This document shows, piece by piece, positions 57,471 through 64,000 of a DNA stretch of 64,000 nt. The stretch is from Anaerovibrio lipolyticus LB2005 (GTDB taxonomy: Bacteria > Bacillota > Negativicutes > Selenomonadales > Selenomonadaceae). Numbering within the stretch: position 1 is the stretch's first letter; every line of letters starts with the position of its first letter. The stretch is taken from assembly GCF_000621545.1 (NCBI RefSeq), contig NZ_JHYA01000002.1, positions 62,001 to 126,000 of the forward strand, in the 5' to 3' direction. The position numbers and the translations under genes are program-made. The notes under the pieces are model-generated. The model worked only from the letters and a program-made list of their open reading frames with translations, did no database searches and was not told the origin of the DNA.

Positions 57471-57529
57471 CAAAATCATTATTAAAATATTGAATGCCAG
57501 AAGGAGTTCTTTTTGGCTTTTGAATTTTG

Positions 57530-57538
57530 TGCTATACT
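57530..57538 (+). promoter_or_regulatory. Extended -10 promoter
   Basis: TGCTATACT forms an extended -10 element 38 bp before the chosen ATG 57576. A -35 is poor. It lies inside the longer frame that would begin at 57513, so that frame's upstream part is not coding. Confidence 0.5.
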
Positions 57539-57575
57539 CAAGGGAGACTACAGTTATTTGAGGAGATGGGTTAGT

Positions 57576-58064
57576 ATGATTAGAAAACAGCTGCTGATGC
57601 TTTGTAGGCTTGTTGTTGTAGTAATGATATTATTTTTAGCTGGCAATATGGATGCAGCTACTGGTGAGGCCTCTGTATGGAATAAGGCATTTACCTATAG
57701 GGGTGATGTATACAGCATAGATAATTTCCGGACCAGCATTGTGGATTTTCCTAAATCTGGGAAGGCATTGGTATCCTGGTGGCGTGTAGAGATGGAGGAT
57801 GGCTCTTACTCCATAGAGAAATGGGCGTATAAAGGAAACCTAGCTCGCGGTACGGCCAAAGGGTGTTTGTTGGCCGTTGCTAAATACAATATAATGGGCG
57901 ACAGTGAGGAAAGTAAGACCATAACCGATAATCCGTTGGAGAATGATTATGAGGTTGTTTTTCCAGAGTCCATTGGTGAAGAAAAGTATCGGACGGCTAT
58001 ACAGGTATATTGTGATAGACGGGGACTCTATCAGGCAGAAGAAATGTCTGATGTATGGAAATAA
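57576..58064 (+). CDS. Secreted protein of unknown function
   Basis: The 162-residue product starts at ATG 57576, after GAGGAGATGGG and the promoter. It has a signal peptide (LLMLCRLVVVVMILFLAG, then NMDAAT). The mature part is a small mixed domain (NKAFTYRGDVYSIDNFRTS, SWWRVEMEDGSYSIEKWAYK). The end is charged and cysteine poor, with one Cys near the middle and one near the end. I recognise no family. It is followed by the bidirectional terminator at 58133-58159. Confidence 0.65.
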   Translation: MIRKQLLMLCRLVVVVMILFLAGNMDAATGEASVWNKAFTYRGDVYSIDNFRTSIVDFPKSGKALVSWWRVEMEDGSYSIEKWAYKGNLARGTAKGCLLAVAKYNIMGDSEESKTITDNPLENDYEVVFPESIGEEKYRTAIQVYCDRRGLYQAEEMSDVWK

Positions 58065-58132
58065 GCTGATGTTAGTATAAAACAGCTAGTTATTTTAGAT
58101 TGATTAATATAATACTTATATGAACTATAAAA

Positions 58133-58159
58133 GCCAGCCCAAAATGGGCTGGCCTTTTT
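58133..58159. terminator. Terminator between convergent genes
   Basis: GCCAGCCCA (58133-58141) pairs with TGGGCTGGC (58145-58153), then CTTTTTG. It separates the secreted-protein gene from the opposing XRE gene. Confidence 0.85.
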
Positions 58160-58163
58160 GTTT

Positions 58164-58397
58164 TTAATCATTCTCCGGTGGAATATATTCAATTAAATCA
58201 GTAATATCGCAGTCAAGGGCGTAACATAGTCTGGCTAAGACCGCTGTGTCAAGACGTTGTATTGTATTTTTACAATAACCTCTGACTTGGGACCGCTGTA
58301 ATTCAGCTCGAAATGCCAATTTGTTGATACTAATATTTTGTGTTTGAAGTATACTATCTAGTTTTATATTTATTCTCCCGTAGTTTATTTCTTTCAT
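58164..58397 (-). CDS. XRE/HTH_26-type transcriptional regulator
   Basis: The 77-residue protein is little more than a Cro/C1-type helix-turn-helix (about residues 10-70; ILQTQNISINKLAFRAELQRSQ, then DTAVLARLCYALDCDITDL). ATG 58397 is chosen because the preceding AGGTGA is seven bases away, whereas ATG 58403 abuts it. It is divergent from the 472-residue secreted protein. A 20-bp palindrome in the shared intergenic region (58494-58513) is its likely operator. Confidence 0.82.
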   Translation of the reverse strand: MKEINYGRINIKLDSILQTQNISINKLAFRAELQRSQVRGYCKNTIQRLDTAVLARLCYALDCDITDLIEYIPPEND

Positions 58398-58460
58398 AAT
58401 CATTCACCTAAAACAAGCCTGAAACATCTCAATATATATTTTATTCTTTTTATCGTCTAA

Positions 58461-58513
58461 TTGTAATGGATAAGATATTATGATAATATTTACATGGGTA
58501 GATATATACCCAT
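58461..58513 (+). promoter_or_regulatory. Promoter and palindromic operator upstream of the secreted 472-residue protein
   Basis: TTGTAA (58461-58466), a 17-bp spacer and TAATAT (58484-58489) form a promoter. ATGGGTA-GATATA-TACCCAT (58494-58513) is a perfect inverted repeat over the predicted transcription start, well placed for repression by the divergent XRE protein. Confidence 0.6.
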
Positions 58514-58594
58514 ATTAAGCATGTGATTTTTAAAAATGTTTAATTTTTAATATTTTTATAATACCGTTCTTTAGTTGAGGGGAGGAAATGGGAT

Positions 58595-60013
58595 ATGTTT
58601 AAACATCATATTTCAGCAGGGATAGCAGCTTTTCTTTTGTGTACGGGTGTGATGGTTGGCCTGCCAACCATGGCTGTTGCTGCAACATCGGTGAATCTAG
58701 ATAGAGATGATGTGGCGTATTACCGGGTGGCTGATACCCAGTCTAAAAAGGTGGATTTTGAATATGAGCCACAGCAAGGCATAAAGGTAGGGTATATTAT
58801 TACCGGTGATTATGAGGCCTTGTTGGATGATAATACTATGGGGTATATTCGTCGTGTTCTCCATACTAAGTTCCCAGGAGCCCGTTACCCAATGGAAAGA
58901 ATGGAGAATATTGATGGACATATCCATATGGGACGTCGCAATACTGGAGATACCTTTATCTTAAGTGAAGCCCATGACGTATTGGCTTTGGAATTTGAAA
59001 AATTGGAGAATATGTATCAGAGGATTCCAAGGCGTACAATTTCCAGTGATAGCACTATTAATGAAAAATCAAATGGTGTGGATATTGGGATTTCAAAAAT
59101 AAATGATAGAGGGAATGTGGTGCGTAGTGGGATTCTTAATGGTGTATTAAATGGAACAATTAGTGGTTCTGGATCTTCTACTAATTCCTCTTCAACAAGT
59201 GGTGCTTATAATGATACTACTGGTGCTTTTGGTAGCAATACTACAGGCTCTTCATCAGGTAGCGGGAACAGTGCAATTTCAGCTAATGGTTCTCTTAGCG
59301 GTGTTGAGGGAACGCATATAGATGAAGATATTACTGCAAAGGGCATACATTTTGGTACTGGAGATAGGGAAATTACCAGACATGATGATGTTATAGAAGA
59401 TTACGATTCCTTAGGTGCTGATAATTCCTATGACTTTACACCACATCTTACAACTCTTCCAAAGGATGACTATGTACAGTTTGCCCGTGAATTGGAGGAA
59501 GAAGGATTAGGTGGTTATGATTACCTTATAATGTTTAATATTAAGCCACTAAAGAGTGTGGTTAAGGGGAAATTGTTTGGCTCTACCCGTCAAAGTGACT
59601 TTAGATTGTCAGTTCGTGCAATTGACGTAGCTACTGGACGTTATATTGATCGTGGAGAATATTTATCAAGAGGAACTTCGTCCAGTGCCAACCTATCATT
59701 GCCAATTATTGGCAATTTAGGCCCAGGTCCTAGCTGGCGACGGGCAATGAGAAAATCTCTTATTGATGCCATGATAAAGAGCTTTGATCATATGCCAATA
59801 GGCAAGTATTCAGTTTGTGATAATCCATACTGTGCCAGACGGCAGGATGAAATTCGTATGGAAAGTGTATTTGGTAAAAGCCATCGTCATTGCGTAAAGC
59901 ATTGTAATGAAAGAACGTCATGTGATGATCATATGGTAAGTTATCAGCTTGATGCGGATTTACCATCAGGGTATGTAAAGGGCCAGAAGGATGAGCTCTA
60001 TATCCGTGATTAA
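58595..60013 (+). CDS. Secreted protein of unknown function with Ser/Gly/Asn linker and Cys-His cluster
   Basis: This 472-residue protein has a signal peptide (to about VAA at residue 30). An N-terminal domain (about 35-145) is followed by a low-complexity S/G/N/T linker (about 185-240). A second domain (about 285-400) has YDYLIMFNIKPLKSVVKG and DFRLSVRAIDVATGRYIDRG. The C-terminal region, rich in Cys and His (CDNPYC...HRHCVKHC...TSCDDH), could bind metal. The strand-DVATG-helix order resembles periplasmic domains of the LPP20/CsgG-like type. I do not recognise a family. Its promoter and the divergent XRE gene suggest repression. Confidence 0.6.
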   Translation: MFKHHISAGIAAFLLCTGVMVGLPTMAVAATSVNLDRDDVAYYRVADTQSKKVDFEYEPQQGIKVGYIITGDYEALLDDNTMGYIRRVLHTKFPGARYPMERMENIDGHIHMGRRNTGDTFILSEAHDVLALEFEKLENMYQRIPRRTISSDSTINEKSNGVDIGISKINDRGNVVRSGILNGVLNGTISGSGSSTNSSSTSGAYNDTTGAFGSNTTGSSSGSGNSAISANGSLSGVEGTHIDEDITAKGIHFGTGDREITRHDDVIEDYDSLGADNSYDFTPHLTTLPKDDYVQFARELEEEGLGGYDYLIMFNIKPLKSVVKGKLFGSTRQSDFRLSVRAIDVATGRYIDRGEYLSRGTSSSANLSLPIIGNLGPGPSWRRAMRKSLIDAMIKSFDHMPIGKYSVCDNPYCARRQDEIRMESVFGKSHRHCVKHCNERTSCDDHMVSYQLDADLPSGYVKGQKDELYIRD

Positions 60014-60088
60014 ATGATTGTTGTTCTTTAACAAAACTAATAATTTATATAAACAGCTGTAAACATGAAACGTTAATAGTTGGTGATT

Positions 60089-60127
60089 ATGAGGCTTTGC
60101 ATTTTTGTGAGGCCTCATTTTGTTTTT
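60089..60127 (+). terminator. Intrinsic terminator
   Basis: ATGAGGC (60089-60095) pairs with GCCTCAT (60112-60118), followed by TTTGTTTTTT. It ends the secreted-protein unit. Confidence 0.75.
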
Positions 60128-60169
60128 TGCATGAATGTTCCATAGTTGTTTTTAAAACATAATTTCTTC

Positions 60170-60198
60170 TTGTTGTTAGTATGCCAATGGCGTATAAT
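60170..60198 (+). promoter_or_regulatory. Promoter of the toxin-antitoxin operon (leaderless)
   Basis: TTGTTG (60170-60175), a 17-bp spacer and TATAAT (60193-60198) form a near-consensus promoter. Transcription should begin six or seven bases after the -10, at or next to A60205, the first base of the chosen toxin start codon. Confidence 0.65.
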
Positions 60199-60204
60199 GG
60201 AACT

Positions 60205-60570
60205 ATGAATATTGAATTTATAGTTCCACAGGTTCTGCTAGAAACAAATGCATACAGAAAAGCTGTGAATGATATTTGGGACGAAGATGAGCAGACAGAA
60301 TTTAAAAATTATATTGGTTCGAATCCCTATGCTGGAGTTGTGATTCCGGGTACAGGTGGTATTAGAAAAATACGTTGGCAAGCATCTGGACATGGTAAGC
60401 GTGGAGGGGCCAGAGTTATTTACTATATATATGACGAAAATAATCCGTTATATTTGTTGTATGCTTATCCCAAAAATGTTCAGGTTAATATTAGCGAAGC
60501 TGAAAAGAAGGTTCTCGCCTCTGTTGTTGACGAAATAAAACAAGCTATTAGAAGTAGAAGGGGTGAATAA
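60205..60570 (+). CDS. RelE/HigB-like type II toxin
   Basis: The 121-residue protein matches the RelE/ParE-fold HigB2-like ribonuclease toxins that cut mRNA on the ribosome. GTGGIRKIRWQASGHGKRGG and ARVIYYIYDENN are the family core; basic residues in that block are the expected catalytic ones. I start at ATG 60205 (MNIEFIVPQVLLE), the usual family N-terminus. ATG 60181 and 60187 lie in the promoter and have no ribosome-binding site. The mRNA would therefore be leaderless. The antitoxin start follows two bases after its stop, in the toxin-first order of higBA. Confidence 0.87.
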   Translation: MNIEFIVPQVLLETNAYRKAVNDIWDEDEQTEFKNYIGSNPYAGVVIPGTGGIRKIRWQASGHGKRGGARVIYYIYDENNPLYLLYAYPKNVQVNISEAEKKVLASVVDEIKQAIRSRRGE

Positions 60571-60571
60571 T

Positions 60572-60871
60572 ATGGATAAAGAGATGTCTTCCGTTGCTGC
60601 TGGAATAATGAATGGCTTAAAAGAGGTTTTAGAAGATGTAAAGGGAGAAAAGGCTGAAAAACTCCATAAAACTGTAGTTTATCGTATAAGTGCAAGGGCT
60701 GTACGGGAAAATTTAAATATGTCCCAATCAGAATTTTCAAGGAATTTTGGTATTCCTTTGGCTACACTAAGAAATTGGGAACAGGGGCGCCGTGATATGG
60801 ATGCCACTGCTGAAGCTTATCTCAAAACTATAAGTAAGTTTCCAAAAGAAGCAATGTCTGCACAACAATAA
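60572..60871 (+). CDS. HigA-like antitoxin with XRE HTH domain
   Basis: The 99-residue partner has an N-terminal helical region that probably wraps the toxin (ASSVAAGIMNGLKEVLEDVKG) and a C-terminal XRE-type helix-turn-helix (NLNMSQSEFSRNFGIPLATLRNWEQGRR). ATG 60572 has an AGAAGGGG site eight bases away; GTG 60563 would overlap the toxin. Toxin-first order, tight spacing and HTH fit NadS/HigA-type antitoxins that repress their own operon. A terminator follows. Confidence 0.86.
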   Translation: MDKEMSSVAAGIMNGLKEVLEDVKGEKAEKLHKTVVYRISARAVRENLNMSQSEFSRNFGIPLATLRNWEQGRRDMDATAEAYLKTISKFPKEAMSAQQ

Positions 60872-60889: not shown

Positions 60890-60919
60890 AAAAAGAGGAG
60901 TTGACGGGCTTCTCTTTTT
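60890..60919 (+). terminator. Intrinsic terminator of the toxin-antitoxin operon
   Basis: AAAAAGAG (60890-60897) pairs with CTCTTTTT (60912-60919). The T-run is part of the right arm. Confidence 0.65.
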
Positions 60920-60923
60920 AGTT

Positions 60924-60962
60924 ACTTCAATACAACTTCAAACAAACTTCAATTTACTTCAA
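60924..60962 (+). repeat. Four helically phased ACTTCAA repeats upstream of hydE
   Basis: ACTTCAA starts at 60924, 60935, 60946 and 60956, with spacings of 11, 11 and 10 bp, about one DNA turn. All lie on the same strand and face of the helix. The array sits between the toxin-antitoxin terminator and the hydrogenase-maturation operon, so it is a plausible multimer-binding operator or iteron-like array. Bases 60963-61029 are AT-rich. Confidence 0.65.
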
Positions 60963-61029
60963 AATCACCATATTGGCGAAAAATGTCAGACAAATAATAA
61001 AAGTCTTTATATTGATAAAATAAACCAAA

Positions 61030-61055
61030 AGTTATACCATAATATATGTATAACT
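61030..61055 (+). promoter_or_regulatory. Inverted repeat near the hydE start
   Basis: AGTTATAC (61030-61037) and GTATAACT (61048-61055) are perfect 8-bp arms around a 10-bp AT-rich centre. TTGATA (61012-61017) and TACCAT (61035-61040) with a 17-bp spacer may be the promoter, so the left arm would cover its -10. Confidence 0.5.
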
Positions 61056-61078: not shown

Positions 61079-62101
61079 ATTTCTGTCGTAGATGAAGTTG
61101 AGGCAAAAAAGAATATAACTTTGAAACAGCTTCAATATCTCCTTGATGGAAATGAGGCTGCTTACCTTAAAGAGCGGGCTCTGGCAGTACGGCGGGAGCA
61201 TTATGGCAATGAGGTGTTTATTCGGGGATTGATTGAATTTACAAATTATTGCCGGAATAACTGTTATTATTGTGGTATTCGTCGTGATAACCAGAATGTT
61301 GACAGGTACCGTCTTTCAGAAGGGGAAATAATGGAGTGCTGCACAGAAGGATATCGTCTGGGCTTTCGTACCTTTGTACTTCAGGGAGGCGAGGATGGAT
61401 TTTTTACGGATGAGAAAATTTGCCACATAGTATCATCCATAAAGGGCAGCTTTCCGGATTGTGCTGTCACCCTTTCTATAGGAGAGAAAACGAGAGAGAG
61501 CTATAAGGCTTTTTTTGAGGCTGGGGCAGACAGATACCTTCTTCGCCATGAAACTGCCAATGATGCCCATTACCAAAGGCTTCATCCATCTGAATTATCC
61601 TTGGCTAACCGCAAGGGATGTCTAAATAATCTTAAGGATATAGGCTATCAGGTGGGAGCAGGATTTATGGTGGGGTCCCCAGGCCAGACAACACAAACAC
61701 TATGTGATGATTTGCAGTTTCTACGTGAACTAAATCCTCACATGGTGGGTATAGGTCCCTTTATTCCCCAGCATGATACCCCATTTGCTGCGGAGAAGAC
61801 GGGAACAGTGGATATGACGGTAACCTTGTTGGCTGTTATAAGGCTATTGCTGCCACGGGTTTTATTGCCCGCAACTACAGCTTTGGGTACAATTGACCCA
61901 GTTGGGCGGGAGAAGGGCCTTATGGCAGGAGCCAATGTGGTGATGCCAAATCTTTCGCCAAAGAGGGTTAGAGAGAAATACGCTCTGTATGACAAGAAAA
62001 TCTGTACCGGGGAAGAGGCGGCAGAATGTATAGAGTGTCTTAAAAGAAGGGTAAATAAAATCGGTTGCAGTGTTGTGTGTGACCGGGGAGATTATAGGTG
62101 A
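61079..62101 (+). CDS. hydE: [FeFe]-hydrogenase maturase HydE (radical SAM)
   Basis: HydE is a radical-SAM enzyme needed to build the hydrogenase H-cluster. The cluster motif is CRNNCYYCGIRRDN. TFVLQGGED, RYLLRHETAND and GIGPFIPQHDTP are strongly HydE-like. The frame is open from 61058. TTG 61121 has no ribosome-binding site. The residues upstream (VDEVEAKKNITLKQLQYLL) align with the usual HydE N-terminus, and ATT 61079 is preceded by GGGGTGG. I therefore extend the gene to 61079 (340 residues), a rare start codon; 61121 is the fallback. The stop overlaps hydG by 4 bp. Confidence 0.85.
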   Translation: MSVVDEVEAKKNITLKQLQYLLDGNEAAYLKERALAVRREHYGNEVFIRGLIEFTNYCRNNCYYCGIRRDNQNVDRYRLSEGEIMECCTEGYRLGFRTFVLQGGEDGFFTDEKICHIVSSIKGSFPDCAVTLSIGEKTRESYKAFFEAGADRYLLRHETANDAHYQRLHPSELSLANRKGCLNNLKDIGYQVGAGFMVGSPGQTTQTLCDDLQFLRELNPHMVGIGPFIPQHDTPFAAEKTGTVDMTVTLLAVIRLLLPRVLLPATTALGTIDPVGREKGLMAGANVVMPNLSPKRVREKYALYDKKICTGEEAAECIECLKRRVNKIGCSVVCDRGDYR

Positions 62102-63525
62102 TTCAAATGTATGATATGAAATCTATGAAGGCTGAGGAGTTTATTTCCGATGAGGAAATTCAGGCAACTCTAAGGTATGCTGACGAAAACAAAGATAATA
62201 TGGAGGTCCTTGATGCCATTATTGCCAAGGCAAAATTGGGGAAGGGCCTCAGCCATCGTGAGGCATCTGTGCTTTTGGCCTGTGACAATGAGGAAAAGCT
62301 CCAGGAGATCTATGATTTGGCAAGACAGATTAAGGAGGATTATTACGGTAACCGTATAGTATTATTTGCTCCCTTATATTTGTCCAATTATTGTGTAAAT
62401 GGCTGTCTTTATTGTCCATACCACGCAAAGAATAAACATATCAGCCGCAAGAAGCTGACTCAGGATGAAATACGTCGTGAGGTAATGGCTTTGCAGGATA
62501 TGGGACATAAGCGTCTGGCAATTGAACTTGGTGAGGATCCTGTAAATAATCCTATTGAATATGTACTGGAGTCTATTAATACCATTTACAATATCAAGCA
62601 CAAGAATGGTGCTATACGCCGTGTTAATGTTAATATTGCGGCAACCACTGTGGAGAATTACAAAAAGCTCCATGATGCGGGAATTGGCACATATATACTT
62701 TTTCAGGAGACTTATAACAAAAAGTCTTATGAGGAGCTTCATCCAACGGGACCAAAGCATGATTACGCATATCATACTGAGGCCATGGACAGAGCCCAGG
62801 AGGGCGGAATTGATGATGTGGGCTTAGGCGTCCTCTTTGGGCTTGAGGGATATCGTTATGAGTTTGCGGGACTTTTGATGCACGCAGAGCATTTGGAGGC
62901 AGTTCATGGCGTTGGGCCGCATACCATTAGTGTACCAAGGGTTAAGAAGGCAGATGACATTGATCCGGAAGCCTTTGATAACGGTATCAGTGATGAAATC
63001 TTTGAGAAGATTATTGCCCTCATTCGTGTGGCAGTGCCTTATACGGGAATGATTATTTCCACCCGTGAAGGCAAGACTGTCCGTGAAAAGGCATTGGAGC
63101 TGGGGATTTCCCAGATAAGTGGTGGATCCCGTACCAGTGTTGGCGGTTATGTAGAGGAGGAGCCGGAGGATGATAACTCTGCTCAGTTTGATGTAAGTGA
63201 CCGACGTACTCTGGATGAGGTGTTGAACTGGCTTATTACCCTTGGCTATGTGCCAAGCTTCTGCACTGCATGTTATCGGGAGGGACGTACTGGCGATCGG
63301 TTCATGTCCCTCTGTAAGAGCAAACAGATATTGAATTGCTGTCATCCAAATGCCCTTATGACCTTAAAGGAGTATTTGGAGGATTATGCTAGTGAGGATA
63401 CCAAGAAAAAGGGCATGGCAATGATTGAGTCGGAGCTGAAGAAAATTCCAAATGAAAAGGTTCGTCAGATTGCAGCCCAGCATTTAGCCGAAATAAGTGA
63501 AGGTAAGAGGGACTTTAGGTTTTAA
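62098..63525 (+). CDS. hydG: [FeFe]-hydrogenase maturase HydG (tyrosine lyase)
   Basis: HydG splits tyrosine to supply the CO and CN ligands of the H-cluster. The 475-residue protein starts at GTG 62098, eight bases after GGGGAG. The radical-SAM cluster is C99, C103, C106 in NYCVNGCLYC. The C-terminal auxiliary cluster and its region read CTACYREGRTGDRFM...CKSKQILNCCHPNA, diagnostic of HydG over ThiH. The overlap with hydE and one-base gap to hydF show a single operon. Confidence 0.97.
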   Translation: MIQMYDMKSMKAEEFISDEEIQATLRYADENKDNMEVLDAIIAKAKLGKGLSHREASVLLACDNEEKLQEIYDLARQIKEDYYGNRIVLFAPLYLSNYCVNGCLYCPYHAKNKHISRKKLTQDEIRREVMALQDMGHKRLAIELGEDPVNNPIEYVLESINTIYNIKHKNGAIRRVNVNIAATTVENYKKLHDAGIGTYILFQETYNKKSYEELHPTGPKHDYAYHTEAMDRAQEGGIDDVGLGVLFGLEGYRYEFAGLLMHAEHLEAVHGVGPHTISVPRVKKADDIDPEAFDNGISDEIFEKIIALIRVAVPYTGMIISTREGKTVREKALELGISQISGGSRTSVGGYVEEEPEDDNSAQFDVSDRRTLDEVLNWLITLGYVPSFCTACYREGRTGDRFMSLCKSKQILNCCHPNALMTLKEYLEDYASEDTKKKGMAMIESELKKIPNEKVRQIAAQHLAEISEGKRDFRF

Positions 63526-63526
63526 T

Positions 63527-64000
63527 ATGGCAGAGTTAAATTCAACACCAAATGCCAATAGACTTCACATAGGAATCTTTGGTAGAACAAATAGTGGTAA
63601 ATCTTCTTTGATAAATCTTCTGACGGGGCAAAAAACATCTATTGTGTCTGAGGTGGCAGGTACTACCACAGACCCGGTCTATAAGGCCATGGAAATAAGC
63701 CCTTTGGGAGCCTGTGTTATCATCGACACTCCGGGTATAGAGGATAATTCCTCTTTAGGAGCACAGCGTTTGGTGAAGACCAAGCTGGCCATGGAAAAGA
63801 CGGACGTGGCAATTCTGGTTTTTGCGGCTAATTTCCAAGGCAATTTTGAGGAAGAATATAAGCTGCTGGAAATTTTTCAAAAGAAAAAAGTGCCTGTCCT
63901 ATGTCTTGTTAATTCCTTTGGGAAGATTTTGGGGGAAGACAAGTTAAAGGATACAATATCCGAAAGGCTTCATGGCGACAGCAATGCACTTCTGGTGGCA
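63527..64000 (+). CDS. hydF: [FeFe]-hydrogenase maturation GTPase HydF (partial)
   Basis: The first 158 residues of HydF are present, cut by the window end. HydF is the GTPase scaffold that assembles the diiron subcluster and delivers it to the hydrogenase. The G1 loop GRTNSGKS (about residues 19-26), the switch segment VAGTTTDPVYK and DTPGIED follow in order. The ATG is two bases after the hydG stop. The C-terminal [4Fe-4S] domain is not visible. Confidence 0.95.
   Translation, partial: MAELNSTPNANRLHIGIFGRTNSGKSSLINLLTGQKTSIVSEVAGTTTDPVYKAMEISPLGACVIIDTPGIEDNSSLGAQRLVKTKLAMEKTDVAILVFAANFQGNFEEEYKLLEIFQKKKVPVLCLVNSFGKILGEDKLKDTISERLHGDSNALLVA

Follow-up and report, generated by a model that had tools for sequence, protein, structure and literature searches.

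A phased heptamer array upstream of hydE in Anaerovibrio lipolyticus as the probable relic operator of a lost Schlafen-type gene

The window, a 64,000-nucleotide stretch of the Anaerovibrio lipolyticus LB2005 genome, carries four copies of the heptamer ACTTCAA at about one helical turn from each other (60924-60962, plus strand; TTGAAGT on the minus strand). This array is probably a fossil, the truncated operator of a lost gene for a protein with Schlafen AlbA_2, HATPase_c_4 and winged-helix (wHTH) domains, and the full element is a putative cooperative autorepression switch. The link between array and gene is established by comparison; binding, repression, a signal and RNase activity we infer.

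A word search of the window placed exact plus-strand copies at 60924, 60935, 60946 and 60956, confirming the four identical 7-mers at steps of 11, 11 and 10 bp described in the initial annotation. When chains of any 7-mer at 10-12 bp steps were compared across the window, this array was the longest, with four copies; the longest chain in each of 100 dinucleotide shuffles had two. The phased array is real and far outside chance. As a word ACTTCAA is not over-represented, occurring 15 times in the window against a shuffle mean of 10.1, with 8 of 100 shuffles reaching 15, and the unusual feature is its phased clustering. In the window's own genome (G000), a pattern search found one array with at least three copies, that at 60924-60962. 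The sole further match to a two-copy pattern was a pair 11 bp apart (C8:769-786, locus L099), upstream of what by eye is a chemotaxis-receptor-like gene, with the other strand reading TATAAT between the copies. A coding repeat was considered and rejected, as the 11-bp period is no multiple of three and the single listed plus-strand ORF across the array has 61 aa.

The array is flanked on both sides by plus-strand genes. On its left lies a RelE-like toxin and HTH antitoxin-like pair (60205-60871) and then, directly before the array, a terminator-like hairpin with a T-run (60890-60919), identified by folding (-14.1 kcal/mol, z -3.96) and not among the matches of a consensus terminator scan of the window. 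A similar sequence also precedes the array in two relatives, G008 and G002, there behind a different gene (identified by eye in G002); on this comparison the hairpin is not specific to the toxin-antitoxin pair. The initial annotation had placed the array just past the toxin-antitoxin terminator, and a hairpin does lie there. On the right are hydE (61079-62101; HydE equivalog, with an inferred ATT start codon), hydG (62098-63525) and a gene with a GTPase domain, probably hydF by its position, which is cut by the window end (63497-64000). We regard hydE as a neighbour of the array and not its owner. The distance from the array end to the probable hydE start is 116 bp, close to the roughly 110 bp previously estimated.

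The hydE start itself is probably the ATT at 61079-61081, behind a GGGGTGG ribosome site. There is no in-frame ATG, GTG or TTG in the window from the upstream stop to this codon. Across 15 hydE loci of the genus, the start position holds ATT in 14 and ATA in the remaining one, and a canonical in-frame codon lies further upstream in seven of the 15. A candidate hydE promoter, TTGATA-17-TACCAT (61012-61040, plus strand), falls in a stretch conserved in some array-free relatives; a consensus promoter scan of the window performed no better than on shuffles.

The probable owner of the array emerged from a class-wide pattern search of 380 genomes in which three copies were required. Such arrays were present in 15 genomes, all in the window's own family. 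In five of these (G015, G024, G222, G266 and G268) the array lay directly upstream of a close ortholog of one gene, cut by the contig end in G266, which encodes a protein of about 476 residues. A protein search found no close ortholog in the other ten, some of them drafts such as G006 and G128 in which absence is less sure.

An alignment of the five proteins was then used as a query. It confirmed 118 loci, of which the best 80 (at least 59% identity) were kept; plasmid pCY360 of Butyrivibrio proteoclasticus and one unannotated phage-collection scaffold brought the total to 82. By their record titles these loci span several phyla and include Lachnospiraceae, Selenomonas, Treponema, Coriobacteriaceae and Erysipelotrichaceae, with Treponema ruminis RU1, Kandleria vitulina DSM 20405 and Acetatifactor muris DSM 23669 among the named strains. 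Upstream regions were taken from 81 loci, leaving out L287, whose contig starts at the gene. TTGAAGT occurred within 300 nt upstream of the start in all 81 orthologs, in at least two copies in 79 and as a phased run of at least three in 63, counts that ignore kinship amongst mutually related and in many cases metagenome-assembled sequences. Control windows from the same loci contained TTGAAGT on that strand in 61 of 2059 cases and a run of at least three, on either strand, in 4 of 2059. After removal of the four genomes already found by their array, 77/77 had TTGAAGT, 75/77 at least two copies and 59/77 a run.

No TTGAAGT run was found upstream of any of 28 distant paralogs (24-40% identity) in relatives, several of which matched over part of the protein only, with an uncertain start, and one of which has just 43 nt upstream. 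The link is therefore to this subfamily. An early scan had hinted that distant paralogs have arrays of their own, phased 6-mers of other words (L063, L064, L065 and others). This idea was dropped: in the 300 nt upstream, 27 of the 28 had no phased 6-mer, and L068 had a three-copy AGATTA run.

The TTGAAGT copies point towards the gene, and ACTTCAA on the plus strand of the window therefore predicts a minus-strand gene to the left. The likely owner of the window array is thus an absent Schlafen/GHKL/wHTH gene on the minus strand, on the side now holding the toxin-antitoxin pair. No neighbour family was widely shared within flanks of up to about 4 kb, the largest, transporter-like by eye, occurring at 9 of 81 loci; the subfamily therefore looks like a one-gene module. 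A regulon search covered 49 ortholog-bearing genomes (those of 50 of the 80 loci, less L222) and returned a three-copy match in 39, the listed matches of each genome lying on one contig. Loci with extra arrays were inspected closely in six genomes. Second arrays of the same heptamer, oriented like the first, were present in the vicinity of the Schlafen-type gene in L214, L217, L249, L261 and L289 (5/82 loci), and also in L323. In L214 and L261 the second array lies directly behind the gene, so that arrays flank it. The operator may thus act on other promoters or have another purpose.

The upstream regions revealed how the complete element is built. Within 200 nt upstream of the 81 orthologs there were 402 exact copies of TTGAAGT, compared with 2.7 after shuffling. 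Neighbouring units (up to one mismatch) mostly lay 11 bp (269 steps) or 12 bp (108 steps) apart, and in at least 63 of the 108 longer steps the gap sequence was TTGACT (41) or TTGACA (22). Runs in complete elements were mostly of 3-9 copies, with up to 15 counted. In the 70 regions with a promoter score of at least 9, units clustered at offsets of -28, -17, -6, +6, +17 and +28, counted from where the -35 box begins, such that TTGAC[A/T] occupies a 12-bp step and the second gap downstream contains the -10 box. By these positions, a sigma-70-type promoter is interleaved with the array in most orthologs. Intact copies of the gene with this element occur in many gut and rumen bacteria. A promoter score of at least 10 was reached by 55 of 81 upstream regions and 66 of 810 shuffled sequences, a contrast somewhat overstated by a half-point bonus for 17-bp spacers and by shuffles that do not keep the units; the register between units and promoter is independent of this bonus. 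Many arrays end, by eye, in an inverted half-site (e.g. TTGAAGT-A-GTTCAA) near the expected transcription start. The geometry of cooperative binding in helical register, proposed earlier from four copies, is well supported by the sequence of this wider element, with its 402 copies at mostly 11- or 12-bp steps.

The two proteins examined contain a Schlafen AlbA_2 domain (Pfam PF04326) and a HATPase_c_4 domain, to which a structure model adds a C-terminal winged helix (mean pLDDT 77.7, pTM 0.53, domain placement uncertain). The best Foldseek match of the model over its length was 3lmm (E 4e-19, TM-score 0.40), followed by human Schlafens at E 7e-6 and above, which the N-terminal part resembles. 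ArsR-type repressors (HlyU, SmtB, NolR), which the C-terminal winged helix resembles, matched one short domain with weak E-values of 0.035 and above. Residues E13 and E18 are conserved in 30 of 30 sequences and D52 in 29 of 30; they align with E205, E210 and D248 of SLFN13 (PDB 5yd0; numbering offset by hand), the Glu/Glu/Asp tripod described in the accessible text of PMC5862951. By its AlbA_2 domain with this tripod, the protein is a candidate bacterial Schlafen-type RNase. The gene probably encodes an RNase effector, because its AlbA_2 domain keeps the residues that align with the SLFN13 RNase centre. An anti-phage role for such an effector is plausible.

In the mechanism we propose, the protein would polymerise on the array, its C-terminal winged helix binding cooperatively with a single protomer at each unit, and would thereby block its own promoter. 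A signal felt by the ATPase part would relieve the block.

The window copy matches the complete element in part. It has exact heptamers at 10-12 bp steps in more than three copies; it lacks an in-register -35 box in a 12-bp step with a -10 box 17 bp on, and no cognate gene lies directly behind its TTGAAGT strand. No close ortholog was found in the window's genome or in G008, only proteins at 27-29% identity, and no gene remnant was found beside the window array.

The same hydE site in relatives indicates what has been lost. An array was seen at four of 15 hydE loci of the genus (G000, G008, G006 and, as a remnant, G002) and at none of the other 11; G005 yielded no close hydE match. In G006 the array has 11 units, ten of them exact, and on the gene strand TTGACT-17-TATATT lies in register, followed by what remains of the C-terminal part of the Schlafen-type gene, with side and strand as predicted. 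The longer array of G008 has seven copies with weak promoter boxes, the window retains four promoter-distal units and no boxes, and G002 has two right-hand units left, one mutated. Because the boxes are present in G006, weak in G008 and absent in the window, we consider the window array a relic and not a complete member; the four hydE-site arrays count as one event. An ancestor of the window species would have had a Schlafen-type gene adjoining hydE and pointing away from it. To judge from the G006 remnant and the series G006, G008, window, G002, both the gene and the promoter-proximal part of the array would then have been lost. The order of genes from a metallophosphatase-like gene to hydE (57513-60871 in the window) differs from that in G008 (homologies by eye).

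Remnants of the gene were found beside three of 12 gene-less arrays (G006, G013b and G267a), all on the predicted side and strand. None of the 12 had a remnant on the opposite side and nine, including that of the window, had no remnant at all; G248 was left out of these counts, its locus repeating that of G246. In gene-less arrays 53 of 57 units were exact; in gene-linked arrays, counting those with three copies in succession, 347 of 415 were. All four window units are exact. Degeneracy is no higher in gene-less than in gene-linked arrays, which could mean continued function, yet the search picked arrays with three perfect copies.

Further loci show the element in decay. L328 (G245) has a decaying array followed by the gene in separate pieces, N-terminal and C-terminal, without its middle part, and L329 (G257) has a decayed array. 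L136 (G013) has two imperfect arrays at a distance of about 3 kb from each other, in surroundings that by eye contain ATP-binding and helicase-like genes; a C-terminal remnant of the Schlafen-type gene adjoins one of these arrays. G245 and G257 were both found through a reversed-pattern control, which matched in 8 of 380 genomes. This pattern overlaps real arrays and is no clean control: five of the eight genomes also have forward matches, the G013 arrays are imperfect and those of G245 and G257 decayed.

A bolder reading than a relic operator takes array and single gene as a self-contained, horizontally moving immune switch, in which orphan arrays are kept for a purpose. The RNase would sense infection through its ATPase part, and the winged helix, polymerised on the array, would hold the promoter shut. 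Orphan arrays would titrate the repressor of incoming copies, or re-use the repressor to couple neighbours such as hydEGF to the signal. We regard this extension as speculative and rather doubtful.

It is unlikely that the array is a working hydEGF operator, on which a host activator or repressor would tune hydrogenase maturation. Its position before hydE, its retention in G000, G008 and G006 (and, as two residual units, in G002) and the exactness of all four window copies agree with such a role. The initial annotation had suggested an activator array for hydEGF; as the main reading this was set aside, since the hydE promoter region also occurs in relatives that lack the array. Four array-free relatives were aligned, and three of them (G014, G004 and G010, but not G013) have this region, including the candidate promoter, in common with the window; the other seven array-free loci fell outside the alignment and look diverged. 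With no array at 11 of 15 loci and the promoter region shared by three of the four aligned array-free relatives, the array is no standard part of hydE control. It has moreover decayed in G002, and elsewhere arrays accompany the Schlafen-type gene. The genome-wide motif scan proposed in the initial annotation found no second three-copy array in the genome. The Rex consensus is the inverted repeat TTGTGAA-N6-TTCACAA; the direct ACTTCAA repeats (by eye) bear no resemblance to it, as stated previously. For hydE, the four copies that are left are probably dispensable.

The arrays could also belong to a mobile element that carries the gene along, serving for instance as its target or attachment repeats, and not be operators of the Schlafen-type gene. 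Orphan arrays outnumber gene-linked ones in the family (10 of 15 genomes), the gene is bracketed by arrays in L214 and L261, and it occurs on a plasmid as well as in distant groups. The -35/-10 register in most orthologs is however needed by an operator and not by an attachment site, second arrays are confined to 5 of 82 loci, and no recombinase or other neighbour family is widely shared. We consider this reading quite improbable. In viral contigs, 73 stretches matched the three-copy pattern, and no homolog of the Schlafen-type protein was found in them; 41 of 64 counted runs had 12-bp steps only, and the 12 with 11, 11 steps are not explained. A phage collection held two unannotated scaffolds with close homologs, and the one examined, L211, has the array; we do not claim phage carriage of the gene from it.

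HTH antitoxins bind their own operators and the RelE/HTH pair adjoins the array in the window, but an operator of this pair, the other possibility raised initially, is scarcely credible for an array that lies downstream of the genes and past the terminator-like hairpin, not upstream of them, and that is not linked to them in relatives, standing in G008 with no such pair seen within 3 kb beyond it and in G002 behind another gene.

As a relic operator, the array has parallels in known systems. Operators of CarH and CarA consist of direct repeats about one helical turn apart over the promoter and are bound by a repressor with a wHTH domain. Protein and sequence are unrelated to those studied here, and no B12 domain was found in the present protein. 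BldC of Streptomyces, a MerR-like protein, resembles our system in its head-to-tail direct repeats of varying number at promoters and in cooperative multimers of a winged helix, shown for BldC and proposed here. According to the available text of PMC5859096, BldC has 68 residues and its repeat is AATTXXXX(C), whereas here an invariant heptamer recurs every 11-12 bp, woven into the promoter of a gene whose Schlafen/GHKL/wHTH product is much larger. Both repeat and protein thus set the element apart from the family of small MerR-like BldC proteins. The domain order is identical in proteins combining a Schlafen RNase, a minimal histidine kinase and a wHTH domain that are linked to BREX loci and have been proposed to act in defence as backup suicidal RNase effectors (PMC12839542, in the part available). 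The available part of that source mentions no operator array, and in the subfamily here even the commonest neighbour family is confined to 9 of 81 loci. The best fold match over the length of the model, DIP2311 of Corynebacterium diphtheriae (PDB 3lmm), shares about 14% identity at a TM-score of 0.40, and its entry title gives no function. A literature search, with most subscription journals and bioRxiv outside its reach, found no description of the heptamer array or of DNA sites of these proteins. By its sequence, the full element appears to be a cooperative autorepression switch, not described before in the literature covered, on the gene for a probable Schlafen-type RNase.

Proteins in which a Schlafen RNase domain is combined with an ATPase and a winged helix are common among bacteria, and recent work ties them to phage defence (PMC12839542, in the part available). 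A heptamer array in promoter register offers a precise, testable answer to why such an RNase has a winged helix: the helix would serve to hold the protein's own promoter closed. As a DNA signature, the array may also help to locate copies of the gene and their scars, the window being an example of such a scar beside an unrelated operon.
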